In this document: positions 549-24,795 of the stretch, piece by piece
Position numbering within the stretch: position 1 is the first letter of the stretch
Layout: each line of letters opens with the position of its first letter
NCBI GenBank assembly: GCA_041530395.1
Contig: CP136945.1
Coordinates: 1,116,001-1,180,000 of the forward strand
Length of the DNA: 64,000 nucleotides
Source of the DNA: Thermosynechococcaceae cyanobacterium Okahandja
Lineage (GTDB): Bacteria; Cyanobacteriota; Cyanobacteriia; Thermosynechococcales; Thermosynechococcaceae
Reading direction: 5' to 3'
The notes under the pieces: model-generated
Told to the model about the DNA's origin: nothing
Databases searched by the model: none
Seen by the model: only the letters and a program-made list of their open reading frames with translations
Program-made: the position numbers and the translations under genes

Positions 549-2036
549 CTAAGGTAAGTGGGCAGCAACGCTCGCCACAACCTCGGTGGTGCCGGGGATG
601 GCCGCTATAAGCTGTTCACTGATGGTTTCGCTCCAGCGCACCAGCCAAGTGGGTTGCACCCCTAAGACCAAAATCAAGAGGGTTAACACCAGAGCAGGGA
701 CTTTTTCGGGCCAGAGTACCCGCGGATAGTAGGCAGTGGCGTTATCCAGACGGCCAAAGCAGGTGCGGTTGAGCAGAATCACAAAATATACGGCCGTTAA
801 GCCGGTGCCGACCACCGCAATCAGCGTGGGGATGGGAAAGACGGCATAGCTTCCTTGGAAGACCAAAAATTCGGCCACAAAGCCCACCAGCCCCGGAATC
901 CCCGCACTGGCCATGCCGCCGAGGATCAGCAAGGCACTCGTTGTCGGTAAGCCCCGCAGGGGATTGAGCAGACCGTTGAGCACATCTAGCTCGCGGGTGC
1001 CCACTTTTGTTTCAATGACCCCCACCAAGTAAAACAGGAGTGCCAAAATTAACCCGTGGCTAATCATCTGGGCGATCGCCCCCACCATACTCAGATGGGT
1101 ATGGGCCGCTAAGGCCAGCAAAACATAGCCCATGTGGCCAATGGAACTGTAGGCCACCATCCGCTTAATATCCTTCTGGGCAATGGCCGCTAGGGCACCG
1201 TAGAGAATACTGGCGGCAGCAACAATGGCCAGTAACTCCGAAAGTTGCCCCCATGCTTGCGGAAATAGACCCACCGCAAACCGCACCAGACCATAGGTAC
1301 CCAGTTTGGCCAGAATTCCCCCCAACAGGATTGCCGTCGGGGTAGAGGCTTCGACGTAGGCATCCGGTAGCCAACTGTGGAGCGGCACAAGGGGAATTTT
1401 AATGCCAAAGCCCAGTACCAGTAGCACCAACAAAATGAGTTGGGTGGTGGGAGCAAGATTAGCCAGTTGCAAATCGGCGTAGTCAAAGCTGGGGGCACCC
1501 GTTAGCCAGCCCATGGCCAAGAAGGCCGCTAAGATCAAAATGCCTGAGATGGCAGTGTAGATTAGGAATTTGACGGCAGCCTGCTCGCGGCGCTGCCCCC
1601 CCCACACCAAGATGAGCAAATAAAAGGGAACCAACTCCAGCTCATAAAAAAGAATAAACAGAAGCAGGTTTTGGGCACTCAACGCTCCCGTAATGCCCGC
1701 ATTGGCCACCAAGACAAGCACGTAGAATAAGCGTGGTGAACTTTTCTCGCCATTAAAAATCACCACCAAGGTTAAGAAGGCGCCCAGCACAATCAGCGGC
1801 AGGGATAACCCATCGACCCCAAGGGAGTAGTTCAGCCCGAGCGGCGGCAGCCATGGAGCAAATTCGCTAAATTGCAGCCCCACCGCCTGCAAGTCCAATT
1901 GACTCAGGAGCCACACCGACAACCCAAAGGTTGCGGCAGCGCCACCTAGGGCAACGGGGCGCAGCAGTCGCTCCGGCAACACTGACATCAGCAGAGCCGC
2001 TGCGATAGGAATCAGGATCAACAGTGTCAAGACCAT
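549..2036 (-). CDS. ndhD: NAD(P)H-quinone oxidoreductase subunit 4, NdhD3/NdhD4 type
   Basis: A 495-residue, very hydrophobic protein of the NuoM/NdhD antiporter-like family, with about 14 predicted membrane segments. Family stretches are visible: FYELELVPFYLLILVWGG, KIPLVPLHSWLPDAYVEAST and KRMVAYSSIGHMGYVLLA. Proton-pumping Lys and Glu residues lie in these. It sits between ndhF (30 bp upstream) and a cup gene (31 bp downstream). That order marks it as a subunit of the CO2-uptake NDH-1MS complex rather than the respiratory NDH-1L form, whose ndhD1 is at 54694-56280. The choice between D3 and D4 is open. Confidence 0.9.
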   Translation of the reverse strand: MVLTLLILIPIAAALLMSVLPERLLRPVALGGAAATFGLSVWLLSQLDLQAVGLQFSEFAPWLPPLGLNYSLGVDGLSLPLIVLGAFLTLVVIFNGEKSSPRLFYVLVLVANAGITGALSAQNLLLFILFYELELVPFYLLILVWGGQRREQAAVKFLIYTAISGILILAAFLAMGWLTGAPSFDYADLQLANLAPTTQLILLVLLVLGFGIKIPLVPLHSWLPDAYVEASTPTAILLGGILAKLGTYGLVRFAVGLFPQAWGQLSELLAIVAAASILYGALAAIAQKDIKRMVAYSSIGHMGYVLLALAAHTHLSMVGAIAQMISHGLILALLFYLVGVIETKVGTRELDVLNGLLNPLRGLPTTSALLILGGMASAGIPGLVGFVAEFLVFQGSYAVFPIPTLIAVVGTGLTAVYFVILLNRTCFGRLDNATAYYPRVLWPEKVPALVLTLLILVLGVQPTWLVRWSETISEQLIAAIPGTTEVVASVAAHLP

Positions 2037-2066
2037 AGCAAGAACCTCACTGGATGGGGATTAGGA

Positions 2067-3902
2067 CTAGCGCAGCAGCGGCCAGCAAATGGCAATACCA
2101 AGAATGGCCGTGCCCAAAAGAATGGTGAGGATGTAGGCTTGGGATTGACCCGTAGTGCTGTACTTGAGGCGATCGCCCCCCAGCAGCGTCACGAGGCCAA
2201 ACGTATTGCCGGTGCCATCCACCAACGTGCGGTCAACCCACGCCGTTAGGCGCGAGATCAAATCCACTGCCCCAACAACGGTCGCCCGGTAGAGTTTTGG
2301 GGTGTAAAAGTCGTAGGCCAGCAGGTCTTGCAACGAGGGCAGCGGCAAGCGCACAGGCTTGGGAATCGCGCGCCCCAAATAGACCCACGCCGCTAAACCC
2401 CACCCCACAAGAGCACTCACCGTGAGGAGGGCAGCCGTTTGCAGCGACGGGTGTGTCCAGATTACCCAGTTAAAGGAGCGCATCATAATGGGCAGGTGTA
2501 GCACAACCCCCACATCCACCACCATGGGCAGGGTCATCGGCCAAAACACCTCGGGCGATCGCGCCGTCATGGGTTTGACATCGCCCCCCCAAATCATGCA
2601 GAAGGTACGTCCCAAACTAAAGGCAGCAAAGGTATTCACCAGTAACAAAACCACCCCCACCCACGGCAACTGGGCAAACGCAGTATCCAGTAGCTCCGCT
2701 TGGGGGAAAAAGCCCGCTAGGGGGGGGACCGCCAATAACCCTGCCGTACCGATCAAGAAGGCCAGACCAGAAATGGGACGGCGCGACCACAGGCCACCCA
2801 GCAGGCGCAAATCTTGGGTAATGCTGTTCCAGATAATGCTGCCAATACTCATCATCAGCAGCGCCATGGCCACAGCGTAGGTGAGCACAAAAACAAAGGC
2901 TAGCCCCGGCTCCTTCAGGCCGACGGCAATAAAAACCAGACCCATATCGGCACTCACAATGTAAGAGAGTGCCCGCTTAATATCCACCTGAGCCGTGGCA
3001 ATCAGCGTGCCCCCCAGAGCCGTCACACTACCAATCACCAACAGGGCCGTCAAAGCGGTTGGCGACAAACTCAATACAGGGGTGAGCTTCACTAAAACCC
3101 AAGCACCGGTGGCCACCACAATGGCATTCCGGAGGATAGAGGCGGGAATTGGCCCCTCCATGGCTTCATCGAGCCAGAGGTGCAGCGGAAACTGGGCGCA
3201 TTTCCCCATCGGCCCAGCAATTAAAGCGAGACAAATCAGGGTAATCAGGGTGGGATCCACATGGGCAGTGGCGGCCCAGGCCGCTAAATCATCGTAGTTC
3301 CAAGACCCGGCCAAGGGATAAATGGCCAGAACCCCCATCAGCAGAATTAAATCCCCAACCCGCTTGGTGAGAAAGGCATCGCGGGCACCCGTTACCACTA
3401 AGGGCTGGTTAAACCACAGGCCAATGAGCAAGTAGGTGGCCAGCGTTAGAATTTCCAGTACCACGTAGTTAAAAAAGAGCGAGTCCAGCAGGACAAGGGC
3501 ACCCATCCCCCCTTCAAAGAGGGCAAGCAGGGCAAAAAAACGCGCCCAGCCCCAGTCCATCTCCATATAGCCGACGGCAAACACCTGTGCCATCAGGTTC
3601 AGCCCCGTAATTAGCATCAGCGCGGTAGTGGTCAAGATTGAAATTTCTACCGGCACATTAAGGTGCAGTCCGGCCACGTCTAGCCAAGTCCAGTGCAAGT
3701 ACTGCGGTGGTTTGTTGGCGATCGCCACCGTGGCCAAGAGTGCGTGGCAAAAGGAAAGGAACGTCAACAGAATATTCACATACCCCGCCGGACGCGGGCC
3801 GGTCTTGCGGGTGATCCCCGGTGACCAAATCAGGGACAGCCCCATCCCCAGTAGTGCGTAGAAGGGAATGAGCCAAACTGTGTCCGCAAATGATTGCAAC
3901 AT
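2067..3902 (-). CDS. ndhF: NAD(P)H-quinone oxidoreductase subunit 5, NdhF3/NdhF4 type
   Basis: A 611-residue membrane protein of the NuoL/NdhF family and the first gene of the ndhF-ndhD-cup operon. Visible motifs include NYVVLEILTLATYLLIGLWF, the QFPLHLWLDEAMEGPIPASI segment, and the C-terminal amphipathic and trans-membrane part. It is shorter than NdhF1 (657 residues, 56351-58324), as expected for CO2-uptake forms. The start at ATG 3902 is preceded by AGGG and a TATAAG -10-like box. A short inverted repeat upstream (3935-3952) could be an operator. F3 or F4 cannot be decided from the sequence alone. Confidence 0.9.
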   Translation of the reverse strand: MLQSFADTVWLIPFYALLGMGLSLIWSPGITRKTGPRPAGYVNILLTFLSFCHALLATVAIANKPPQYLHWTWLDVAGLHLNVPVEISILTTTALMLITGLNLMAQVFAVGYMEMDWGWARFFALLALFEGGMGALVLLDSLFFNYVVLEILTLATYLLIGLWFNQPLVVTGARDAFLTKRVGDLILLMGVLAIYPLAGSWNYDDLAAWAATAHVDPTLITLICLALIAGPMGKCAQFPLHLWLDEAMEGPIPASILRNAIVVATGAWVLVKLTPVLSLSPTALTALLVIGSVTALGGTLIATAQVDIKRALSYIVSADMGLVFIAVGLKEPGLAFVFVLTYAVAMALLMMSIGSIIWNSITQDLRLLGGLWSRRPISGLAFLIGTAGLLAVPPLAGFFPQAELLDTAFAQLPWVGVVLLLVNTFAAFSLGRTFCMIWGGDVKPMTARSPEVFWPMTLPMVVDVGVVLHLPIMMRSFNWVIWTHPSLQTAALLTVSALVGWGLAAWVYLGRAIPKPVRLPLPSLQDLLAYDFYTPKLYRATVVGAVDLISRLTAWVDRTLVDGTGNTFGLVTLLGGDRLKYSTTGQSQAYILTILLGTAILGIAICWPLLR

Positions 3903-3934
3903 AAACCCTGCTTATACCTATGGACAAGACTAAT

Positions 3935-3952
3935 TAGATTTAATCTTATCTA
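3935..3952. promoter_or_regulatory. Inverted repeat upstream of the CO2-uptake ndhF operon, possible LysR-type operator
   Basis: TAGAT-N8-ATCTA, with an overlapping AGATT-T-AATCT, lies 33 bp before the ndhF start in an A+T-rich stretch. LysR regulators such as NdhR/CcmR and CmpR control CO2-uptake NDH-1 operons in cyanobacteria and bind imperfect dyads of this size. The match to a specific regulator is inference. Confidence 0.3.
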
Positions 3953-14281: not shown

Positions 14282-14323
14282 GTAGCCAAATTTACAAAAA
14301 TTCATGGTTTAGCTGCCTAAATT
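14282..14323 (+). promoter_or_regulatory. NtcA-activated promoter of the nir operon
   Basis: A canonical NtcA box GTA-N8-TAC (14282-14295) is followed after 22 bp by TAAATT (14318-14323), which fits the TAN3T -10 box. This is exactly the class II layout of NtcA-dependent promoters. Transcription should start near 14330, giving a leader of about 30 nt before GTG 14362. NtcA with 2-oxoglutarate would turn the operon on when ammonium is scarce. Confidence 0.85.
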
Positions 14324-14361
14324 GGGGTTCACATCACCCATTGGACGCAGGGGCTACAACC

Positions 14362-15921
14362 GTGAGCAACAAAATTGAAACCATCAAGCGCGAGAAAGAC
14401 GGTTTAGCTGTCAAAGACGAGTTAGACCACTTTGCTGCCCTTGGCTGGGAAAACATTCCCGAAGCAGATCGCGACGTGCGCCTCAAGTGGTTGGGGGTAT
14501 TCTTTCGCCCCGTCACCCCCGGCAAGTTCATGATGCGGCTGCGGGTGCCCAACGGCATTCTCACGACTGCGCAACTACGCATCCTCGGGCAAATTGTCGA
14601 TCGCTACGGTGAAGAGGGCAACGGCGACATTACCACCCGCCAAAACCTGCAAATTCGCGGCCTACCCATTAGGGACATTCCTGACGTACTGCGGCAGTTG
14701 CACCAGTGCGGCCTCACCTCGGTGCAATCGGGGATGGACAACGTCCGCAACCTAACCGGCTCCCCCGTGGCGGGCATTGATGCAGCCGAACTCATTGATA
14801 CCCGCCCCTTGATTATGAAATTGCAGGCCATGATTACCAACAACGGCCAAGGCAACCCCGAGTTCAGTAATCTGCCGCGCAAATTTAACATTGCCATCGA
14901 GGGTGGGCGCGACAACTCGGTTCATGCCGAAATTAACGACGTGGCCTTTGTGCCCGCCTATCGAGAGGGGCGGCTGGGGTTTAACGTCCTTGTGGGCGGC
15001 TTTTTCTCAGCGCGGCGTTGCGCTGCGGCCATTCCCCTCAATGCGTGGGTGCCGCCGGATGACGCGGTGGTTCACCTCTGCCGTGCCATTCTGGAAATTT
15101 TCCGCGACCATGGGCTGCGGGGTAACCGTCAAAAAGCCCGCCTGATGTGGCTCATTGACGAGTGGGGCATGGAAAAATTCCGCGCCGCCGTGGCCGCCAA
15201 ACTGCCCTTTGAGCTACTGAGTGCTGCCGCCAAAGATGAAATTGACTGGGACAAACGGGATCACCTTGGGGTGCACCGCCAAAAGCAGCGGGGGCTGAAC
15301 TATGTGGGGCTGCACGTGCCGGTGGGTCGCCTCTATGCACCGGACTTTTTTGAATTGGCACGGCTTGCCCAAACCTACGGCCAAAGCGAAGTTCGCCTGA
15401 CGGTGGAACAAAACCTCCTCATCCCCCATATTCCCGACGCGGTGTTGCCGAGCCTGCTAAAAGAACCGCTGCTGCAAAAGTTTCGGCTAGAGCCGCCCCC
15501 CCTGGAGCGATCGCTAGTGTCCTGTACGGGTGCCCAGTTCTGTAACTTTGCCCTGATTGAAACCAAAAACCGTGCCCTTGCCTTGGCTCGCTGGCTAGAT
15601 CAACACCTCGTGCTACCGCAACCGGTGCGCATCCACTGGACGGGGTGCCCCAACTCCTGTGGTCAGCCCCAAGTGGCCGATATTGGCCTGATGGGCACCA
15701 AAACCCGCCGCAATGGCGAAACCGTCGATGCGGTGGATCTGTACATGGGGGGCAAGGTGGGCAAAGACGCGCAGTTGGGCACCTGTGTGCGCAAAGCCAT
15801 TCCCTGTGATGAGCTACCCGAAGTGCTACGGCAACTGCTCATTGAACACTTTGGGGCGCAGCCCCTTGAGCCGGATCGCCCCGCTGCTGCCACTTCTGCT
15901 GTGGCCATGATCGTGCACTGA
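14362..15921 (+). CDS. nirA: Ferredoxin-nitrite reductase
   Basis: About 519 residues. Reduces nitrite to ammonium with six electrons from ferredoxin, using siroheme and a 4Fe-4S cluster. The cluster cysteines are seen in CTGAQFC and TGCPNSC near residues 405-450. The two sulfite/nitrite reductase half-domains are complete, with TRQNLQIRG and RQKARLMWLIDEWG. No ferredoxin domain is fused to the C-terminus. First gene of the nir operon. I prefer GTG 14362 (GCAGGGG 8 bp upstream); TTG 14341 would add 7 residues. Confidence 0.95.
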   Translation: MSNKIETIKREKDGLAVKDELDHFAALGWENIPEADRDVRLKWLGVFFRPVTPGKFMMRLRVPNGILTTAQLRILGQIVDRYGEEGNGDITTRQNLQIRGLPIRDIPDVLRQLHQCGLTSVQSGMDNVRNLTGSPVAGIDAAELIDTRPLIMKLQAMITNNGQGNPEFSNLPRKFNIAIEGGRDNSVHAEINDVAFVPAYREGRLGFNVLVGGFFSARRCAAAIPLNAWVPPDDAVVHLCRAILEIFRDHGLRGNRQKARLMWLIDEWGMEKFRAAVAAKLPFELLSAAAKDEIDWDKRDHLGVHRQKQRGLNYVGLHVPVGRLYAPDFFELARLAQTYGQSEVRLTVEQNLLIPHIPDAVLPSLLKEPLLQKFRLEPPPLERSLVSCTGAQFCNFALIETKNRALALARWLDQHLVLPQPVRIHWTGCPNSCGQPQVADIGLMGTKTRRNGETVDAVDLYMGGKVGKDAQLGTCVRKAIPCDELPEVLRQLLIEHFGAQPLEPDRPAAATSAVAMIVH

Positions 15922-15966: not shown

Positions 15967-17286
15967 ATGGCTCATTTCTCCCGTCGCCGTTTCTTAGTTA
16001 CTACGGCTGCCACCACTGCCGTGACGCTCCTCTCCCATGGCTGTAGCAGCAACCAGCCAACAACAGAGGTTGCCCAACCCACCACCTTGGCAGAAACCCC
16101 CGAAGTCACCACGGCCAAACTGGGGTTCATTGCCCTGACGGATGCAGCACCCCTGATCATTGCCAAAGAGAAAGGCTATTTTGCTAAGTATGGGATGCCG
16201 GATGTGGAGGTGATTAAACAAGCCTCTTGGGGAGTCACCCGGGACAACTTGGTCCTTGGCTCAGCGGGGGGTGGCATTGATGGGGCGCATATCCTCACGC
16301 CCATGCCCTACCTGATGACTGCTGGCACCATTACCGGTGGCAAAAAGGTGCCCATGTACATCGTGGCGCGCCTTAACACGAACGGGCAAGGTATTTTGTT
16401 GGCCAATACCTACAGAGACCTCAACGTCAGTGCCGATAGCAGCCCCCTCAAAGAGCCGTTTGCAAAACTGCGCGCAGAACTACGTGCCCGTAACCCACAA
16501 GATGACATCAAAGTAGCCATGACCTTTCCGGGAGGCACCCACGACCTGTGGATTCGGTACTGGTTAGCAGCAGGAGGCATTGATCCGGACAAGGACCTTT
16601 CCTTAATTGTGGTGCCACCGCCCCAGATGGTGGCCAATATGAAAACCGGCACGATGGAGGCCTTCTGTGTGGGGGAACCATGGCCGTTGCAGACGGTGAA
16701 CCAGCAGGTGGGGGTGGGTGCCCTCACCACGGGCGAACTCTGGCAAGATCATCCCGAAAAATCCTTTGCCCTGCGCGCCGACTGGGTTGATCAACACCCT
16801 AAAGCCACCAAGGCGCTGTTAATGGCTGTCATGGAGGCGCAGCAGTGGTGTGATCAGGATGCCAATAAGCCGGAAATGGCGCAGATTTTGTCGAAGCGAG
16901 AGTGGTTTAAGGTGCCGGTGGAAGACATTTTAGATCGCTCGCTGGGCAAGTTTAAATTTGGCAATGGCCGCACGCTTGAGGATACCAACCTGATGCAAAA
17001 GTACTGGCGGGATTCTGCCTCTTACCCCTACCAAAGTCACGATCTGTGGTTCCTCACTGAGGATATGCGCTGGGGGTACCTGAGTGCCGATACCGATACC
17101 AAAGCACTGATTCAGGCGGTGAATCGCGAAGACCTGTGGCGTGAGGCGGCAAAGGGTATTGGCGTGCCGGAGGCGGACATTCCCACAACCACCTCGCGGG
17201 GAGTCGAGACCTTTTTTGATGGGGTGGCGTTTGATCCCCAAAATCCGCAGGCGTATCTCAGCAGTTTGGACATTAAGAAGGTCTAG
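15967..17286 (+). CDS. nrtA: Nitrate/nitrite ABC transporter substrate-binding lipoprotein
   Basis: A 439-residue periplasmic binding protein. The N-terminus has a twin-arginine motif (SRRRFLVTT) followed by a hydrophobic stretch and a lipobox-like SHGC, so it is probably exported folded and anchored by lipid. The mature part has the NrtA/CmpA signatures KLGFIALTDAAPLIIAKEKG, FPGGTHDLWIRYWLAAGGI and FCVGEPW. Placement after nirA in an NtcA-driven operon favours nitrate over bicarbonate (CmpA) as ligand. It starts 45 bp after nirA. Confidence 0.93.
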   Translation: MAHFSRRRFLVTTAATTAVTLLSHGCSSNQPTTEVAQPTTLAETPEVTTAKLGFIALTDAAPLIIAKEKGYFAKYGMPDVEVIKQASWGVTRDNLVLGSAGGGIDGAHILTPMPYLMTAGTITGGKKVPMYIVARLNTNGQGILLANTYRDLNVSADSSPLKEPFAKLRAELRARNPQDDIKVAMTFPGGTHDLWIRYWLAAGGIDPDKDLSLIVVPPPQMVANMKTGTMEAFCVGEPWPLQTVNQQVGVGALTTGELWQDHPEKSFALRADWVDQHPKATKALLMAVMEAQQWCDQDANKPEMAQILSKREWFKVPVEDILDRSLGKFKFGNGRTLEDTNLMQKYWRDSASYPYQSHDLWFLTEDMRWGYLSADTDTKALIQAVNREDLWREAAKGIGVPEADIPTTTSRGVETFFDGVAFDPQNPQAYLSSLDIKKV

Positions 17287-17343: not shown

Positions 17344-18183
17344 ATGGCAAGTAGTTCTTTGAGGGGTTCGCGGCGACAGCGGTGGGTCAAGCGCCTGCAA
17401 GGGTCGCCCCTATGGCGCAAGATCATACTCGGGAGTGTGGGGGTCTTGTGTTTCTTGGCTCTCTGGCAGTTGATTTCTATGGTGGGGTTACTCCGGTTAC
17501 CAACCCCCCTGCAGGTGATTGCCGATACTTGGGATTTAATTATTGACCCCTTTTACGAGGGCAGCGGCAACGATGTTGGCTTGGGCTGGCAAATTCTTTC
17601 CAGTCTGCGACGGGTGGCCATTGGTTTCTCTTTGGCCGCAGTGACGGGCGTGGGGCTGGGAATGCTGATTGGCTCTAGCCGCGTGCTGTACGATGCGGTT
17701 GATCCCATTTTGCAGGTGCTGCGACCGGTGCCCCCTCTGGCGTGGCTGCCGATTTCTTTGGCGGCGCTGCGGGACAATGAGCCTGCGGCTATCTTTGTAA
17801 TTTTTATTACAGCCATCTGGCCGATCATTATCAATACCATTGTGGGTGTGCAGCAAATTCCCAAGGACTACAAAAATGTGGCGCGGGTGCTGCGGCTCTC
17901 CCGTAAGGATTACTTCCTGAACATTCTAGTGCCGGCAACGGTGCCCTACGTGTTTACGGGGTTGCGGATTGGGATTGGCCTCTCATGGTTGGCCATTGTG
18001 GCGGCGGAGATGCTGATTGGCGGTGTGGGTATTGGCTTCTTTATCTGGGATGCCTGGAATAGTTCCCTGATTAGCGAAATTATTGTGGCCGTGATTTATG
18101 TGGGCATTGTGGGGCTGGTGCTGGATCGCTCCGTTGCGTTTGTGGGGCGGCTGCTCAGCCACGGTGATGAGGCTCACTCGTAA
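17344..18183 (+). CDS. nrtB: Nitrate/nitrite ABC transporter permease
   Basis: A 279-residue inner-membrane protein with about six hydrophobic segments and a BPD_transp_1 domain. The EAA-type loop that contacts the ATPases is visible near residues 165-190 (GVQQIPKDYKNVARVLRLSR). It is one of the transport proteins NrtABCD, 57 bp after nrtA and 29 bp before nrtC. Two copies would form the channel. Confidence 0.92.
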   Translation: MASSSLRGSRRQRWVKRLQGSPLWRKIILGSVGVLCFLALWQLISMVGLLRLPTPLQVIADTWDLIIDPFYEGSGNDVGLGWQILSSLRRVAIGFSLAAVTGVGLGMLIGSSRVLYDAVDPILQVLRPVPPLAWLPISLAALRDNEPAAIFVIFITAIWPIIINTIVGVQQIPKDYKNVARVLRLSRKDYFLNILVPATVPYVFTGLRIGIGLSWLAIVAAEMLIGGVGIGFFIWDAWNSSLISEIIVAVIYVGIVGLVLDRSVAFVGRLLSHGDEAHS

Positions 18184-18212: not shown

Positions 18213-20213
18213 ATGGCTAAACCCTTACCTTTCATTGAAATTGACCATGTGGATCAGGTCTTTGATCTAGGCGGCGGCGATCGCTACATTGCCCTGAAGA
18301 ATATCCATCTCAAAATTCAAAAAGGGGAGTTTATCTCCCTTGTGGGCCACTCGGGCTGTGGCAAGTCCACGCTCCTCAACATTATTGCCGGGTTTCAGCG
18401 TGCCACCAGTGGTGGGGTGGTGATGGCGGGGCGGCAGGTGACCGAGCCGGGGCCGGATCGCATGGTGGTGTTCCAAAACTATTCACTGCTGCCGTGGAAG
18501 ACGGTGTACGAGAATGTAGCCCTAGCCGTAGAGGCTGTGCTGACAACTCTTAGCAAATCTGAGCGGCGGGAACGGGTCGAGCAGGCGATTCAGCAGGTTC
18601 ATCTTGGGGCGGCGCGGGATAAGTACCCGGCCCAACTGTCGGGGGGGATGAAACAACGGGTGGCGATCGCCCGGGCCTTGGCAATTCAACCCCAAGTGCT
18701 GCTGTTGGATGAACCCTTTGGGGCGCTGGATGCCCTCACCCGCGGCTCTCTCCAAGACGAGCTGATGCAGGTGTGTCAGGCCACGGGCACGACCTGTATT
18801 ATGGTCACCCACGATGTGGACGAGGCCCTACTGCTCTCGGATCGGGTAGTGCTGCTCACCAACGGGCCGGAGGCCCACATCGGCCAAATTTTGAAGATTC
18901 CCTTTGCCCGTCCCCGCAACCGCCACGATGTGCTCAATCATCCCGGCTACTACGGCCTGCGCAATGAGATGATTGCCTTCCTCAATCAGCAAAAACGCCG
19001 CCCCCCAGCGGCCAAAGCGGTGGTGGCACCGACGACCGCGTCCCTTACGCTGGGGTTTATTCCCCTGATGGACTGCGCCCCCCTCGTGGTGGCCAAGGAA
19101 CTGGGCTTTTTTGCCAAGTACGGCCTTGAGGCGGTAACGCTGCACCGCGAAGAAAGCTGGCAGGATTTGGCGGCGGGGGTGGTGAGTGGTCGCTTGGATG
19201 GGGCACACATGTTGGCGGCCATGCCCATGGCGTTGACCCTAGGGTTAAATGGTCAGCCGCCCCAACCCCTAATGACCTCACTGGTGCTCAGCCGCAACGG
19301 CAATGCCATTACGTTTAGTCAGCAGTTGTGGGAGCAAGGGGTCAAGAGTGCCGAGGATCTGCGCGCCTATATTGACCGCACGGGCGATCGCCCCCGCTTT
19401 GGCATTGTCCACGCCGCCTCCATGCATAACCTGCTGCTGCGCTACTGGTTAGCGGCGGCCAACATTGACCCGGATCAAGACGTAGAGTTGCTGGTGATTC
19501 CACCGCCCCAGATGGTCTATCACCTTAAAACGGGGCACATTAGTGGCTTCTGCGTGGGTCAGCCTTGGAACTCCCATGCGGTTCGCGAAGGCATCGGGGT
19601 GGTCGTGGCGACGGATCTGGATATTTGGCCGGGGCACCCGGAAAAGGTACTGGGGGTGCGGCAGGATTGGGCACAGGCACGACCGGCGCAGCATTTAGCC
19701 CTAGTTAAGGCACTCATTGAAGCCTGTGAGTACTGCGACACCATTAAACAGCGTGCGGAGATTGCCCAGTTGCTGTGTCGGCCCGAGTACGTGGGCTGCA
19801 CTCCCGAAGATGCCTATGCCGGATTTGTCAGTCCCCTGAACTGGGGGGATGGCATTGCCACTGCCTTTCAACCCCGCTTCCACCAGTTTTATGTGGATCG
19901 CTCCCCCTGTCCGGGGCGAGTGGAGGGGCTGTGGATCATGACCCAACTGGCACGCTGGCAACTCACTCCTTTTGCCCAAAATTGGTTGGAAATTGTCGAA
20001 CAGGTGCGGCGGGTGGATCTCTTTGGAGCCGCCGCCCGCGATCTCAAGGTGGTGGATAACGAGCCAGATCGCCGTCCCTTTGCCCTCTTTGATGGGGTGG
20101 TGTTTGATCCTGACCACCCCCTTGCCTATATCGAAGCAGCCCCGATTCGGCGTGCCCTCGATATTCAAACCATTGTTACTGGGGCTGGGGAATCCTCACC
20201 CGTGACCGTTTAA
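18213..20213 (+). CDS. nrtC: Nitrate transporter ATPase fused to an NrtA-like regulatory domain
   Basis: A 666-residue two-part protein. The ATPase (about residues 1-265) has Walker A GHSGCGKST, signature LSGGMKQR and Walker [12 protein letters not shown]. After a short linker, residues about 285-655 repeat the NrtA fold (LGFIPLMDCAPLVVAKELGF, FCVGQPW). In known NrtC proteins this domain lets ammonium or nitrogen status shut down nitrate uptake. No signal peptide precedes it, so the binding domain stays in the cytoplasm. Ordinary for cyanobacteria and complete. Confidence 0.95.
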   Translation: MAKPLPFIEIDHVDQVFDLGGGDRYIALKNIHLKIQKGEFISLVGHSGCGKSTLLNIIAGFQRATSGGVVMAGRQVTEPGPDRMVVFQNYSLLPWKTVYENVALAVEAVLTTLSKSERRERVEQAIQQVHLGAARDKYPAQLSGGMKQRVAIARALAIQPQVLLLDEPFGALDALTRGSLQDELMQVCQATGTTCIMVTHDVDEALLLSDRVVLLTNGPEAHIGQILKIPFARPRNRHDVLNHPGYYGLRNEMIAFLNQQKRRPPAAKAVVAPTTASLTLGFIPLMDCAPLVVAKELGFFAKYGLEAVTLHREESWQDLAAGVVSGRLDGAHMLAAMPMALTLGLNGQPPQPLMTSLVLSRNGNAITFSQQLWEQGVKSAEDLRAYIDRTGDRPRFGIVHAASMHNLLLRYWLAAANIDPDQDVELLVIPPPQMVYHLKTGHISGFCVGQPWNSHAVREGIGVVVATDLDIWPGHPEKVLGVRQDWAQARPAQHLALVKALIEACEYCDTIKQRAEIAQLLCRPEYVGCTPEDAYAGFVSPLNWGDGIATAFQPRFHQFYVDRSPCPGRVEGLWIMTQLARWQLTPFAQNWLEIVEQVRRVDLFGAAARDLKVVDNEPDRRPFALFDGVVFDPDHPLAYIEAAPIRRALDIQTIVTGAGESSPVTV

Positions 20214-20246
20214 CCGTTGTCCTTTACGTTGAACCCACTGAGCGCT

Positions 20247-21062
20247 ATGGAAACTCTCTACCGTCTTGACCCACACCTGAGTGCCACCTGCCACCTTGTC
20301 ATTGATGGGGTGAGCAAAATCTACCCCACCCCTACGGGTTCCCATGTGGTGCTCGAGGATATTTATCTGGAGGTGAACAGGGGTGAGTTTGTCTGTCTGA
20401 TTGGCCATTCCGGCTGCGGCAAAACAACCCTGCTGAATATGGTGGCAGGCTTCACCACGCCTAGCCGTGGCCACATTTCCCTTAATGGTGCCCCTGTGCA
20501 ACAGCCCGGACCGGATCGGATGATGGTGTTTCAGAACTATGCGCTGCTACCGTGGCTGACGACCTACCAAAATATTGAACTGGCGGTGAAGTCGGTGTAT
20601 CCCCACAAGACGCGCCAACGGCGGCGGCAGATTGTGGAAGAGCACCTCGAACTCGTCGGCCTCAGTGCTGCTGCCCATAAACGCCCCGGTCAATTGTCGG
20701 GGGGCATGAAACAGCGGGTGGCGATCGCCCGTGCCCTTGCCATCCGCCCGCAAATGCTAATTTTAGACGAGCCGTTTGGTGCCCTCGATGCCATCACCAA
20801 GGAAGAGCTACAGGATGAACTCCTGAAAATTTGGCGGCTCCACAAGCTAACGGTGTTAATGATTACCCACGACATTGACGAAGCCCTCTACCTCGCGGAT
20901 CGGGTGGTGATGATGACCAATGGACCTGCCGCCCACATCGGTGACATCCTGACCATTCCTTTTCCGCGGCCGCGGCGGCGATCGCAACTCCTTGAAGACC
21001 CGCAGTACTACGATCTGCGCAACCAAGTCGTGGACTTTTTGTACACCCGTTTTGGGCACTAG
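20247..21062 (+). CDS. nrtD: Nitrate transporter ATPase
   Basis: About 271 residues. A single ABC ATPase domain partnering NrtC: Walker [11 protein letters not shown]-loop [11 protein letters not shown], signature LSGGMKQR, Walker [13 protein letters not shown], and the H-loop [10 protein letters not shown] chose ATG 20247; TTG 20217, four bases after the nrtC stop, is also in frame and would add ten residues. Seven bases separate it from narB. Confidence 0.93.
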
Positions 21063-21069
21063 GGCAGCC

Positions 21070-23514
21070 ATGAATACCTCAAGGGAGTGGCCGCAGCTTG
21101 GCTCATTGGCGGTACAGTCTAGCCGTTATCTGTGTTACTACCGCAACAGCAGCACCGACATTCAGCAGATTAGCCTCTCCAATCAGCCCTCATGGCAGCG
21201 GGTTCTGTTTCCGGGGCAGCAGCTTTTGTTTCACGGCGATGCCACCGCTCACCTTGTTGTGACCACTGCCCGGGGGGTCAACTACTATCCCTGTACCGAA
21301 CTGCAAGTCCAGGAAAAAAATCGGCGGGTGAATCCGCCAGCGGCGGCGGTTACCTCCCTTTGCCCCTACTGTGGGGTTGGCTGTGGTCTAGAGGCAGTTC
21401 CCCAGGGCAATACCTTTAAGATCCGCGGCGATCGCCAGCATCCTTCTTCCCAAGGCATGGTCTGTGTGAAGGGGGCAACGGTGTTAGAGTCCCTTGAGCG
21501 CGATCGCTTGGCCTATCCCCTGTGGCGGGAACGGCTTGATCAACCCTTTACGGTCATCTCGTGGGATGAAGCCATCACCCGCTTGGTGCAGCGACTGCAA
21601 TGGGTACGGCGCGAGCAGGGAGCCGACGCAATTTGCATGTACGGCTCCGGCCAATTCCAGACGGAAGACTACTACGTGGCCCAAAAACTGATCAAGGGCT
21701 GTCTGGGCACGAATAACTTCGATGCCAACTCCCGCCTGTGTATGTCTTCCGCCGTATCCGCCTACGTTGGCAGCTTTGGCGCGGATGGCCCCCCCTGCTG
21801 CTACGAGGATCTGGAGGCCACCGACTGCGCCTTTCTTATTGGCACCAACACCGCCGAGTGCCACCCAATTGTCTTTAACCGACTGCGGAATCACCACAAA
21901 CGCCACCGCCATGTGAAGTTAATTGTGGTGGATCCGCGTCGCACCGCCACCGCCGAAGTGGCCGACCTGCACCTTGCCATTCGCCCGGGCACCGACATTG
22001 ATTTGCTTCACGGCATCGGCCATTTACTGCTGAAGTGGGGGCACATGGATGCCGAATTTATTGAAGAGTGTACCAATGGCTTTGCCGACTACGTCAAACT
22101 CCTTGAGGGATACCCACCAGAGTGGGTAGCGCAGCGCTGTGGCATTAGCCAAACAGATCTGGAGCAGGCGGCTCGCTACTGGGGACACGCCCAAGCCGTA
22201 CTCTCCCTGTGGTCGATGGGCATTAATCAATCCTCGGAGGGCACCGCTAAAGCCCGCTGCCTCATCAACCTACACCTGTTAACGGGGCAAATTGGCCGCC
22301 CGGGGAGTGGCCCCTTTTCCCTGACCGGGCAACCCAATGCCATGGGTGGGCGGGAAGCGGGGGGACTGTCCCATCTGTTGCCAGGTTACCGTTTTGTCAC
22401 CAACCCGCAACATCGCCAAGAGGTAGAAGCGTTTTGGGGGTTACCCCATGGACATATGAGCGATCGCCCCGGTCGCACTACATGGCAGATGGTGGAAGGC
22501 TTAGAGCGAGGTGAGATTGGTGTATTCTGGATTGCCGCCACCAATCCGGTGGTGAGCCTGCCCCACCTTGAGCGGGTCAAGGCCGCCTTTCTTAAGTCGC
22601 CGTTTACGGTTTATCAGGATGCTTACTTTCCCACGGAAACCGCTGCCTACGCCCACCTGATCTTACCGGCTGCCCAGTGGAGCGAAAAAACCGGTGTCAT
22701 GACCAACTCGGAACGGCGGGTCACCCTTGCGCGCGCCTTTCGCACGCCGCCGGGACTAGCCCGTGCCGACTGGGAAATTTTTGCCGAAGTGGGGCGACGC
22801 TTGGGCTATGGCCAGCTTTTTAACTTTGCCGATGCCGCCGCTGTCTATGCCGAGTTTGTGCAGTTAACGGCGGGTCGCCCCTGCGATCAGTCGGGGCTAA
22901 GTCACGACCGCTTAACCCGCTTGGGGGCGCTGCAATGGCCATGTCCGGCTGGCTCTAGTGATGAAGAGGCTACAGCGCCTAAACGCCTTTATACCGACTG
23001 GCGATTTGCCACCCCTGATGGCCGCGCTCGCTTCTGTGTTGAGCACAGTCGCGGTGTGGCCGAAGCCACCGATGCCGTCTATAGCTTTACGTTAACCACA
23101 GGCCGCCTCTACGGCCACTGGCACACCCAAACCCGCACCGGTCGGATTGCTAAAATTCAAAAAATGCACCCAGAACCGTTCCTAGAAATGCACCCAACGG
23201 ATGCGGCTAACCTCCATCTCAAGGATGGCGATTGGGTCGAGGTGCGATCGCGCCGTGGCGTTGTTTGCCTACCCATTACCGTCACCCGCGCCATTCGACC
23301 GGGCACCCTGTTTATACCCATGCACTGGGGGTTTCTCTTTGCCGAGAGTGCCGAGGCCAATCAACTCACCCATCCCACCGTTTGTCCGATCTCGCACCAA
23401 CCGGAACTCAAAGCCTGTGCGGTGCAGGTTCTTCCCCTACGCTTACGTCATGCCCCCCTGCCCTCTGGCATCTCACAGCAAGGGCAGGAAACGGGTATCC
23501 TACTGAAGCCCTAG
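21070..23514 (+). CDS. narB: Ferredoxin-nitrate reductase with an N-terminal DUF1830-like domain
   Basis: An 814-residue molybdopterin enzyme reducing nitrate to nitrite with ferredoxin. The 4Fe-4S site is CPYCGVGCG (Cys 98, 101, 105) plus a later Cys in GMVCVKG. Mo-bisMGD binding stretches ([39 protein letters not shown]) and the C-terminal molydopterin dinucleotide domain ([19 protein letters not shown]) are complete. Usual NarB begins near the first Cys. Here about 95 residues precede it, and residues 18-80 ([33 protein letters not shown]) resemble the small cyanobacterial DUF1830 family. GTG 21328, in frame with AGGA 13 bp upstream, could start a normal-length NarB. An earlier in-frame start inside nrtD (20992) is unlikely. 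Confidence 0.93.
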
Positions 23515-23542: not shown

Positions 23543-24016
23543 ATGATGTCTTACTTCTTTGATTTTGAGGCGGAGTTTACGGCCTCCTTGCGCTGCATTC
23601 CCATGGTTGTTCGCTACAAGCTCGACCGCTGCGGCATCAAGTTAAAGCTGATTCACTGGCACCAACTGTCCCACGACCAACGGCAGTGGCTGGTGATAAC
23701 CCCCTGCGATCGCCCCGAGGAGCAGGAGCACTATCGTCAGCAACTACGGGACTGGGTGACGGCCAGCCATGGTACGCCCCCCGGCGATCTGGCAGTTCCC
23801 GAAACCTTTGAGTGGGAGATCACCAACGCCATTCCGGAAACCGTGCAGCAGCAACTGCAACGGGAGAACATCCCTCCCTTTACGGTTGAACAATGGGCCG
23901 CCCTCACGCCCCTACAGCGCTTTGCCCTCGTCAAACTCAGCCAGCCCGGCCACGAAAATCGCAACTTTGCGCCCGCACTGCACGAATTTGGCCTTGTGCC
24001 TCAGCCCCACGCCTAA
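23543..24016 (+). CDS. narM: Nitrate reductase maturation protein NarM
   Basis: About 157 residues, beginning MMSYFFDFEAEFTASLRCIP. It matches the cyanobacterial nitrate-reductase-associated protein family: LRCIPMVVRYKLDRCGIKL, LITPCDRPEE-like stretch, and the C-terminal LTPLQRFALVKLSQPGHENRNF. NarM is required for active NarB in Synechococcus but is not an electron carrier. Last gene of the nir operon, 28 bp after narB. ATG 23543 or 23546 is the likely start; GGGG lies upstream. It overlaps ccmO tail to tail by 4 bp. Confidence 0.88.
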   Translation: MMSYFFDFEAEFTASLRCIPMVVRYKLDRCGIKLKLIHWHQLSHDQRQWLVITPCDRPEEQEHYRQQLRDWVTASHGTPPGDLAVPETFEWEITNAIPETVQQQLQRENIPPFTVEQWAALTPLQRFALVKLSQPGHENRNFAPALHEFGLVPQPHA

Positions 24017-24795
24017 TCCCTAGGGGGCTCCAAGGGGACTGCTTCCGGCAGTGTCTCCACGGATACGGTGTCTTGGGGAGCCGCCTGTAGCACCAGCGGC
24101 TCGGTTTCTTTTTGCTTGAGGTTGAGCGGCAGTTGCAGCGGCCGCAACTCTTTTTGTAGCGCCGGGGCAAGGGGCAGCGACTGATCCAAGTCTTCGAGGG
24201 GGCGGGGCACCAGCATCACCGCGTGCAGTTCGCCAATCCGATCCGCTTCTGCCATCCCCGCCTCAAGGGCAATGGCGGTATTCGAGGCGGTACCACGGAT
24301 AATGGCGGTACACAAACCAGCGCCAATGGTTTCGTAGGCCGTTAACATGACATCCGCCGCCTTCAACATGGCATCGGCAGCCCCCACCATAGCCGGAAAG
24401 CCGCGTGTTTCTAGCAGTCCTACTGCATGGCTACTCAGGCGATGTCCACGCGAGCCGGTGGCTAACTGAGCCAGCAGACTACCAATGGGTAAAATTTTCT
24501 CAAGGTTGGGGTCTGGCCGTGGAATCACCAAGGTACTCAGTTCTTGGCCAAACTGCTGCGCTCGCTCTGCTCCCTCTTCAACGGCAAGGCGCACATCGGC
24601 AATCCGTCCGCGCACAATGGCGGTGCAGTGGCCGCTGCCAATTTTTTCATAGCCCACCAGCAGTACATCCGATGACTTCAGCATGTGATCGGCAATGCCA
24701 ACAATTGCTGGAAAGCTCTGGGCTGAAATCAGTCCCAAGGCTAAATCGGTAAAGTTACGGCCCTGCTCCATAGGGGTGTCGGCTCTGTGCTGCAC
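24013..24795 (-). CDS. ccmO: Carboxysome shell protein CcmO, tandem BMC domains
   Basis: A 260-residue protein with two bacterial-microcompartment domains, about residues 15-100 and 120-205. Each shows ALGLIS/AVGLLETRGFPA(I/M)VGAADAMLKAADV and the pore-side G.G.CTAI.RG stretch. Pseudo-hexameric CcmO forms part of the beta-carboxysome shell that encloses Rubisco and carbonic anhydrase. A tail of about 55 residues rich in Pro, Leu and Gln follows. The gene is away from any ccmKLMN cluster in this window, 10 bp after coaX, apparently in an operon with cyAbrB. Confidence 0.92.
   Translation of the reverse strand: MQHRADTPMEQGRNFTDLALGLISAQSFPAIVGIADHMLKSSDVLLVGYEKIGSGHCTAIVRGRIADVRLAVEEGAERAQQFGQELSTLVIPRPDPNLEKILPIGSLLAQLATGSRGHRLSSHAVGLLETRGFPAMVGAADAMLKAADVMLTAYETIGAGLCTAIIRGTASNTAIALEAGMAEADRIGELHAVMLVPRPLEDLDQSLPLAPALQKELRPLQLPLNLKQKETEPLVLQAAPQDTVSVETLPEAVPLEPPRD

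Follow-up and report, generated by a model that had tools for sequence, protein, structure and literature searches.

The window analysed here, the whole stretch of 64,000 nt, contains a nitrate operon whose genes lie on one strand in the order nirA, nrtA, nrtB, nrtC, nrtD, narB and narM, and in which the narB reading frame begins with a DUF1830 domain. The features of the operon are the following:

14282-14295, forward strand: NtcA-type site GTAN8TAC, 45 nt before the listed nirA start
14341-15921, forward strand: nirA, ferredoxin-nitrite reductase, an ORF with a TTG start as listed
15967-17286, forward strand: nrtA, nitrate-binding protein, an ORF named from its sequence and operon position
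17344-18183, forward strand: nrtB, nitrate ABC permease (TIGR01183, 346 bits, cut-off 209)
18213-20213, forward strand: nrtC, nitrate ABC ATPase whose C-terminal half is long (TIGR01184, 394 bits, cut-off 292)
20217-21062, forward strand: nrtD, nitrate ABC ATPase (TIGR01184, 396 bits)
21070-21123, forward strand: residues 1-18 of NarB, an N-terminal tail containing LAVQ (dN/dS, motif count)
21133-21306, forward strand: DUF1830 (PirN-type) domain, residues 22-79 (PF08865, six-strand all-beta model)
21307-21360, forward strand: residues 80-97, the linker and fastest-evolving part
21361-23514, forward strand: NarB catalytic core from C98 of the 4Fe-4S motif, including the molybdopterin domains and the stop codon (PF04879, PF00384, PF01568)
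23543-24016, forward strand: narM, nitrate reductase maturation protein (TIGR02664, 204 bits, cut-off 110)

The name nirA was given presumptively from the sequence of the gene. The nrtA product gave a weak NCBIfam match to the SsuA family (43.6 bits), which is under the cut-off of 163.5, and the narM product, with its frame read from 23519, also matched PF09655. Because GTAN8TAC occurs 9 times in the window compared to 5.4 expected by chance, with 9 of 100 shuffles reaching as many, the NtcA-type site before nirA is identified by its position and not by the match. Facing the operon on the reverse strand, a 260-aa ORF (24013-24795) has two similar halves and by eye resembles a tandem carboxysome-shell protein of the CcmO type.

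The narB frame (21070-23514, forward strand, 814 aa) is open from an ATG at 21070, 7 nt downstream of the nrtD stop, to the stop codon at 23514, and places 97 residues ahead of CPYCGVGCG, the first Cys of which is encoded from 21361. An earlier note on this DNA had counted 97 residues before the first Cys in one frame; this holds for C98 as the first Fe-S Cys, but the extension itself contains C22 and C75. Following the DUF1830 domain, Pfam detected Molybdop_Fe4S4 (residues 93-142), Molybdopterin (146-576) and Molydop_binding (673-784). Over 691 residues, the core was aligned to the solved periplasmic nitrate reductase NapA (2jio), and the Fe-S cysteines as well as the Cys of RLCMSSAV (C224) were in register; we take C224 to be at the position of the NapA Mo ligand. 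The 4Fe-4S cysteines, the Mo-ligand Cys and the molybdopterin domains that mark a NarB are, thus, all present, and from its operon and family the protein would catalyse ferredoxin-dependent nitrate reduction. With ordinary cyanobacterial ferredoxin-nitrate reductase NarB it shares the intact 4Fe-4S and molybdopterin domains and the adjoining narM; by contrast, the ordinary protein, found at most of 114 narB loci described below, has a start codon a few to a few tens of residues before CPYC and lacks DUF1830. As read from the DNA, the predicted product is one polypeptide consisting of a tail, a PirN-type beta domain, a short linker and a complete nitrate reductase.

The earlier note had proposed that the N terminus of NarB is a DUF1830-like domain and made this depend on a profile match. 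Such a match is present: PF08865 covered residues 22-79 when residues 1-94 were searched alone (E 4.3e-10, 39.8 bits, cut-off 25), and it was also detected in whole NarB (E 1.5e-8, 34.9 bits). All of 34 related domains matched PF08865, and C22, Y24, N26, Q32, F47, P48, C75 and L78 are invariant in 34 of 34 aligned domains, which include PirC-type as well as narB-linked ones. In the window's own genome, PF08865 at E up to 1 detected two DUF1830 places, one PirC-type and one fused in NarB, and no free PirN. "PirC-type" is our own label for the best-scoring DUF1830 of each genome. The stretch H[TSC]GMMAS, which is our reading of these rows and not a published definition, occurs in all 31 PirC-type rows of the domain tree and is missing from its 46 other rows, the fused domains among them. 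A PirC-type origin of the fused domain is not favoured; both the grouping in the tree and the missing H[TSC]GMMAS are against it.

Modelled together with 33 relatives, the domain is predicted to form six strands in an all-beta fold with a short helix, with pLDDT 92-97 in blocks from residue 21 to 80, while the tail and linker have pLDDT 57-66. A model of whole NarB from a ten-row alignment had pLDDT 35 and pTM 0.25. Foldseek with the modelled domain gave no match at E 0.001 or better; a designed protein ranked at the top, and the next ranks were VHL beta-domains (TM 0.41-0.49). In VIA-align, Z was at most 7.0 and no family stood out; VHL beta-domains had Z 5.5-5.9 with 12-14% identity in the listed rows and were mixed with other beta-sandwiches. 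Similarly, no PDB sequence matched the domain at E up to 0.1.

Defining the fused state as a PF08865 match in an open frame of more than 800 aa, we detected it in seven of 58 genomes, the window's own being counted among them. Five of the seven are from one genus, namely G000 (which carries the window), G001, G003, G005 and G008; the other two, G012 and G019, are from the same family. The fusion is spread over three genera of the family; at the level of the order, 7 of 29 genomes are fused. A NarB search of the same 58 genomes (E 1e-100) found narB in 50 and agreed on the fused state. In a class-wide sample, a profile of the seven fused N-termini matched 338 of 388 genomes, and, among the matches listed, which comprise the best rows of the 338, the same seven were unbroken. 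In G258, G061, G073 and G199, the match spans both parts with one or two stop codons inside. A sequencing error or frameshift joining two genes, which the earlier note had named as a way in which its reading could fail, is ruled out by seven genomes with the same fusion. Two or more DUF1830 places were found in 32 of the 50 genomes with narB vs none of the 8 without it (Fisher p 0.0008); leaving out the seven fused genomes, because narB itself is one DUF1830 place there, the counts were 25 of 43 vs 0 of 8 (p 0.004), both tests ignoring kinship and genome size.

What the earlier note had overlooked is that in other cyanobacteria DUF1830 genes lie directly upstream of narB. We read 1.1-2.9 kb upstream of the CPYC codon at 114 narB loci, one per genome, which were chosen across genera from listed rows and are not a random sample. 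As the earlier note had expected of other NarB proteins, there is no DUF1830 in the narB frame at 107 of these loci. DUF1830 is fused at seven loci and free directly upstream at 19, G012 having both forms, so that 25 of the 114 loci have one or the other, while at 89 neither form is present within the stretch read. All 26 matches (19 free, 7 fused) are on the narB strand and on the 5' side of narB. The distance from the stop of the free gene to the CPYC codon is 16-139 nt; the exception is G012 with 369 nt, its free copy being followed by the fused one. By coordinates, 14 of 26 picked genomes have a DUF1830 match immediately 5' of narB; 18 of the 26 were picked with two or more DUF1830 places already known. 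In G022, G258, G073 and G199, the free gene and narB are in the same frame with one stop codon between them; in G022 the free frame ends at this stop and the narB ATG follows 13 codons later.

In a tree of 77 domains, the seven fused ones share a group (support 97/90) with the copies upstream of narB in G012 and G228, and one step further out (92/89) are the narB-upstream copies of G073, G061, G244, G258 and G199 together with two paralogues not beside narB; the tree is rough, being based on 71 columns with a bootstrap that had not settled and a long-branch warning. The remaining 12 of the 19 narB-upstream copies are outside the fused clade in an unresolved comb with PirC-type rows. In locus L042 of G012, free pirN (1132-1428) directly precedes fused pirN-narB (1477-3942); their domains form a sister pair (97/80), which would fit a tandem duplication.

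Two DUF1830 proteins have been characterised. PirC, also called CfrA (Sll0944), binds PII and inhibits phosphoglycerate mutase (PMC7760959, PMC6603209, as far as the accessible text of these sources goes). The second, PirN (Ssl2814), is from Synechocystis sp. PCC 6803. In that strain, we take sll1453 to be nrtD and sll1454 to be narB. According to the accessible parts of PMC13205821, the gene for Ssl2814 is located between sll1453 and sll1454 in an NtcA-controlled operon and its product is needed post-transcriptionally for NarB protein: without PirN, the level of NarB protein is much lower while that of narB mRNA is not. The same source reports accumulation of PirN on nitrate and its co-precipitation with both PII and PsbO. 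It favours translational control of narB, with no difference in NarB degradation seen in an in vitro assay, and proposes a second pool of PirN in the thylakoid lumen (PMC13205821, in part). The earlier note had described the function of DUF1830 as unknown and a fusion to nitrate reductase as the first functional hint for the family; on both points the work on PirC/CfrA and PirN came earlier (PMC7760959, PMC6603209, PMC13205821, each in part).

The N-terminal part of NarB has the DUF1830 domain in common with PirN, as well as a position between nrtD and narB, an NtcA-type operon and a tie to NarB, the likeness being judged from family and position. nrtD ends 7 nt before the frame that runs into narB. 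However, PirN is a free small protein, whereas here the domain is the N terminus of NarB. Since it shares its frame with NarB and the genome search gave no free copy, we class it as a PirN-type domain and not as PirN. The likeness to PirC/CfrA consists of the same DUF1830 domain and, on the PirC side, of the PII network; by contrast, PirC is free and inhibits phosphoglycerate mutase (PMC7760959, PMC6603209, in part), the fused domain lacks H[TSC]GMMAS, and this genome has a separate PirC-type gene. Because a free DUF1830 gene lies directly upstream of narB elsewhere and the fused domains group with some of these copies, we conclude with high confidence that the locus is a fusion of two operon neighbours, pirN and narB. 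The positional evidence that pirN was joined to narB is strong, and the tree agrees with moderate support. DUF1830 and PirN are already known; what is new is the physical fusion to NarB, i.e. a known pair of regulator and enzyme in a new architecture. In the literature searched, mostly at the level of titles, we found no report of a DUF1830-NarB fusion, and the accessible parts of PMC13205821 do not mention it.

Among the five fused members of the genus, pairwise dN/dS (10 pairs) was 0.08-0.34 for the domain, 0-0.11 for the tail and 0.03-0.06 for the core, the ratios being rough with many dS values near or above 1. For linker residues 84-97, the ratio was 0.17-0.66 in nine pairs and undefined in the tenth. 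The domain changes faster than the core, with dN of 0.08-0.30 vs 0.02-0.09. Judged from these rates, the N-terminal segment evolves as coding sequence, and translation from the first ATG is supported because the tail is constrained like a coding N-terminus. A spurious upstream extension is ruled out by the ratios for the tail and the domain.

An internal start before CPYC could also, or even mainly, give an ordinary NarB. In-frame candidates can be pointed out: G000, G003, G001 and G005 have a GTG at codon -11 relative to CPYC, and the AGGA before it starts at a distance of 17 nt; G008 has a GTG 28 codons before CPYC, inside the domain, with AGGA beginning 8 nt upstream; and in G012 two GTG codons stand at -5 and -4 relative to CPYC, preceded by AGGA at 5 to 8 nt. 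However, no start position is common to all: the one at -11 is present in four of seven, and in G019 the 55 codons before CPYC are free of ATG, GTG and TTG, which leaves six of the seven fused genes with a candidate of some kind. Moreover, in the four genes with the GTG at -11, the spacing of AGGA is long for a ribosome site and its bases encode conserved EEK or QEK. We therefore regard two products as very unlikely.

The domain has been lost in relatives. narB lacks it in G002, G004 and G006 of the same genus and in G332 and G088 of the same NarB clade. In G004 and G002, narB starts 11 and 8 residues before CPYC, respectively, and G006 keeps MGTPQISALAVQSGPYLHHNHNTSERMQ before the core, a remnant from which most of the domain was deleted in frame. 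Because relatives with narB have lost it, the DUF1830 domain is dispensable for a working narB. In a NarB core tree (32 rows), a single clade (100/100) holds the fused proteins, the unfused ones of G332, G088, G002, G004 and G006, and those of G228 and G250, two genomes with a separate upstream copy. On this tree, the fused label has to change four times, and the starred branches force at least three changes. On this topology, the fused state may have arisen by one gain followed by several losses or by two gains.

LA[VLI][QK] before CPYC was found in 9 of the 114 narB frames, i.e. in the seven fused ones, G006 and G332. In G332, which belongs to another family and lacks the domain, the tail is similar and reads PGSLALQ. 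The motif LA[VL]Q thus persists in G006 (locus L038, from 1426) and G332 despite a deleted or absent domain, so that the tail may have a function independent of the domain.

These changes of state also bear on whether the fusion is nearly neutral, i.e. whether the pirN stop codon was lost, the enzyme was tolerant, and the domain was kept or lost by drift. That pirN and narB share a frame with a single stop between them in four genomes, that at least three changes are forced on the NarB tree and that G006 retains only a deleted remnant would all fit drift. The low dN/dS of domain and tail, the eight residues invariant in 34 of 34 domains and the occurrence of the fusion in three genera argue against it, and we consider neutrality improbable.

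We propose that the separate pirN gene directly upstream of narB was joined in frame to narB and that the fused domain would do in cis what PirN does in trans. The domain would contact the NarB protein next to its Fe-S domain; it could support NarB folding, maturation (with NarM) or stability, and could expose a surface for a PII-type signal, with possible gating by PII. We lean towards such direct action of the domain on the NarB protein, if only by a little, and the same slight lean applies to the explanation as a whole, i.e. the pirN-narB fusion together with action in cis on the NarB protein. A regulatory or docking role, which the earlier note had suggested, is in our judgement the most likely one. 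On a link to NarM or ferredoxin, which the same note had raised, the analysis covered the position of narM, the gene that follows narB. Direct action on NarB is favoured over the published models of translation or lumen function because no other PirN was detected in the genome and a cytoplasmic molybdoenzyme cannot be a free lumen protein. Accordingly, a freely diffusing PirN, a function in the lumen or a separate protein that controls narB translation would be unlikely in this lineage.

The domain might instead be a docking site for PII, which would bind it at low 2-oxoglutarate and turn down the activity of the enzyme, just as it acts on the nitrate transporter, making the domain a switch and not a stabiliser. 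Both of the studied DUF1830 proteins, PirC (PMC7760959, in part) and PirN (PMC13205821, in part), bind PII; however, H[TSC]GMMAS of the PirC-type rows is missing from the fused domain, and the domain has been lost in close relatives. We hold this reading to be doubtful, and equally tentative is its extension that NarB is a direct PII target with a built-in PirN domain as its PII/2-oxoglutarate switch and that free PirN does the same in trans elsewhere. If this were true, the nitrate transporter, through NrtC and NrtD, and the reductase would answer to the same PII signal.

Alternatively, the tail and domain could place NarB at a membrane or in a complex (photosystem II, ferredoxin), as PirN binds PsbO. 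PsbO was pulled down by PirN (PMC13205821, in part), and the tail motif survives in G006 and G332 without the domain; however, the same source places PsbO in the lumen and NarB in a separate compartment outside it, and a short tail motif is weak evidence. Targeting is, in our view, a highly improbable explanation.

Coming back to direct action in cis, the single paper found on how PirN controls NarB proposes translation (PMC13205821, in its accessible parts). A natural PirN-NarB fusion is independent evidence of joint function, most simply with PirN acting on the NarB protein. Moreover, it offers a ready experiment in which regulator and enzyme are in a single chain and close relatives without the regulator part are natural controls.

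Finally, three observations concern other loci in the genomes searched. The narB match in G035 (G035:C4:37621-39753, 53% identity) contains six TGA and one TAG, its opening frame being 289 aa, and is perhaps a pseudogene or affected by assembly errors. In locus L214 (G061:C38), a frame of 424 aa (51-1322) has a PirC-type DUF1830 at its end and a first part that by eye is CHAT-type protease-like; by the same visual reading, it would be a second kind of DUF1830 fusion. G027, G015 and G025 have frames of 177-216 aa in which, by eye, a zinc-ribbon-like CxxC...CxxC segment precedes DUF1830.
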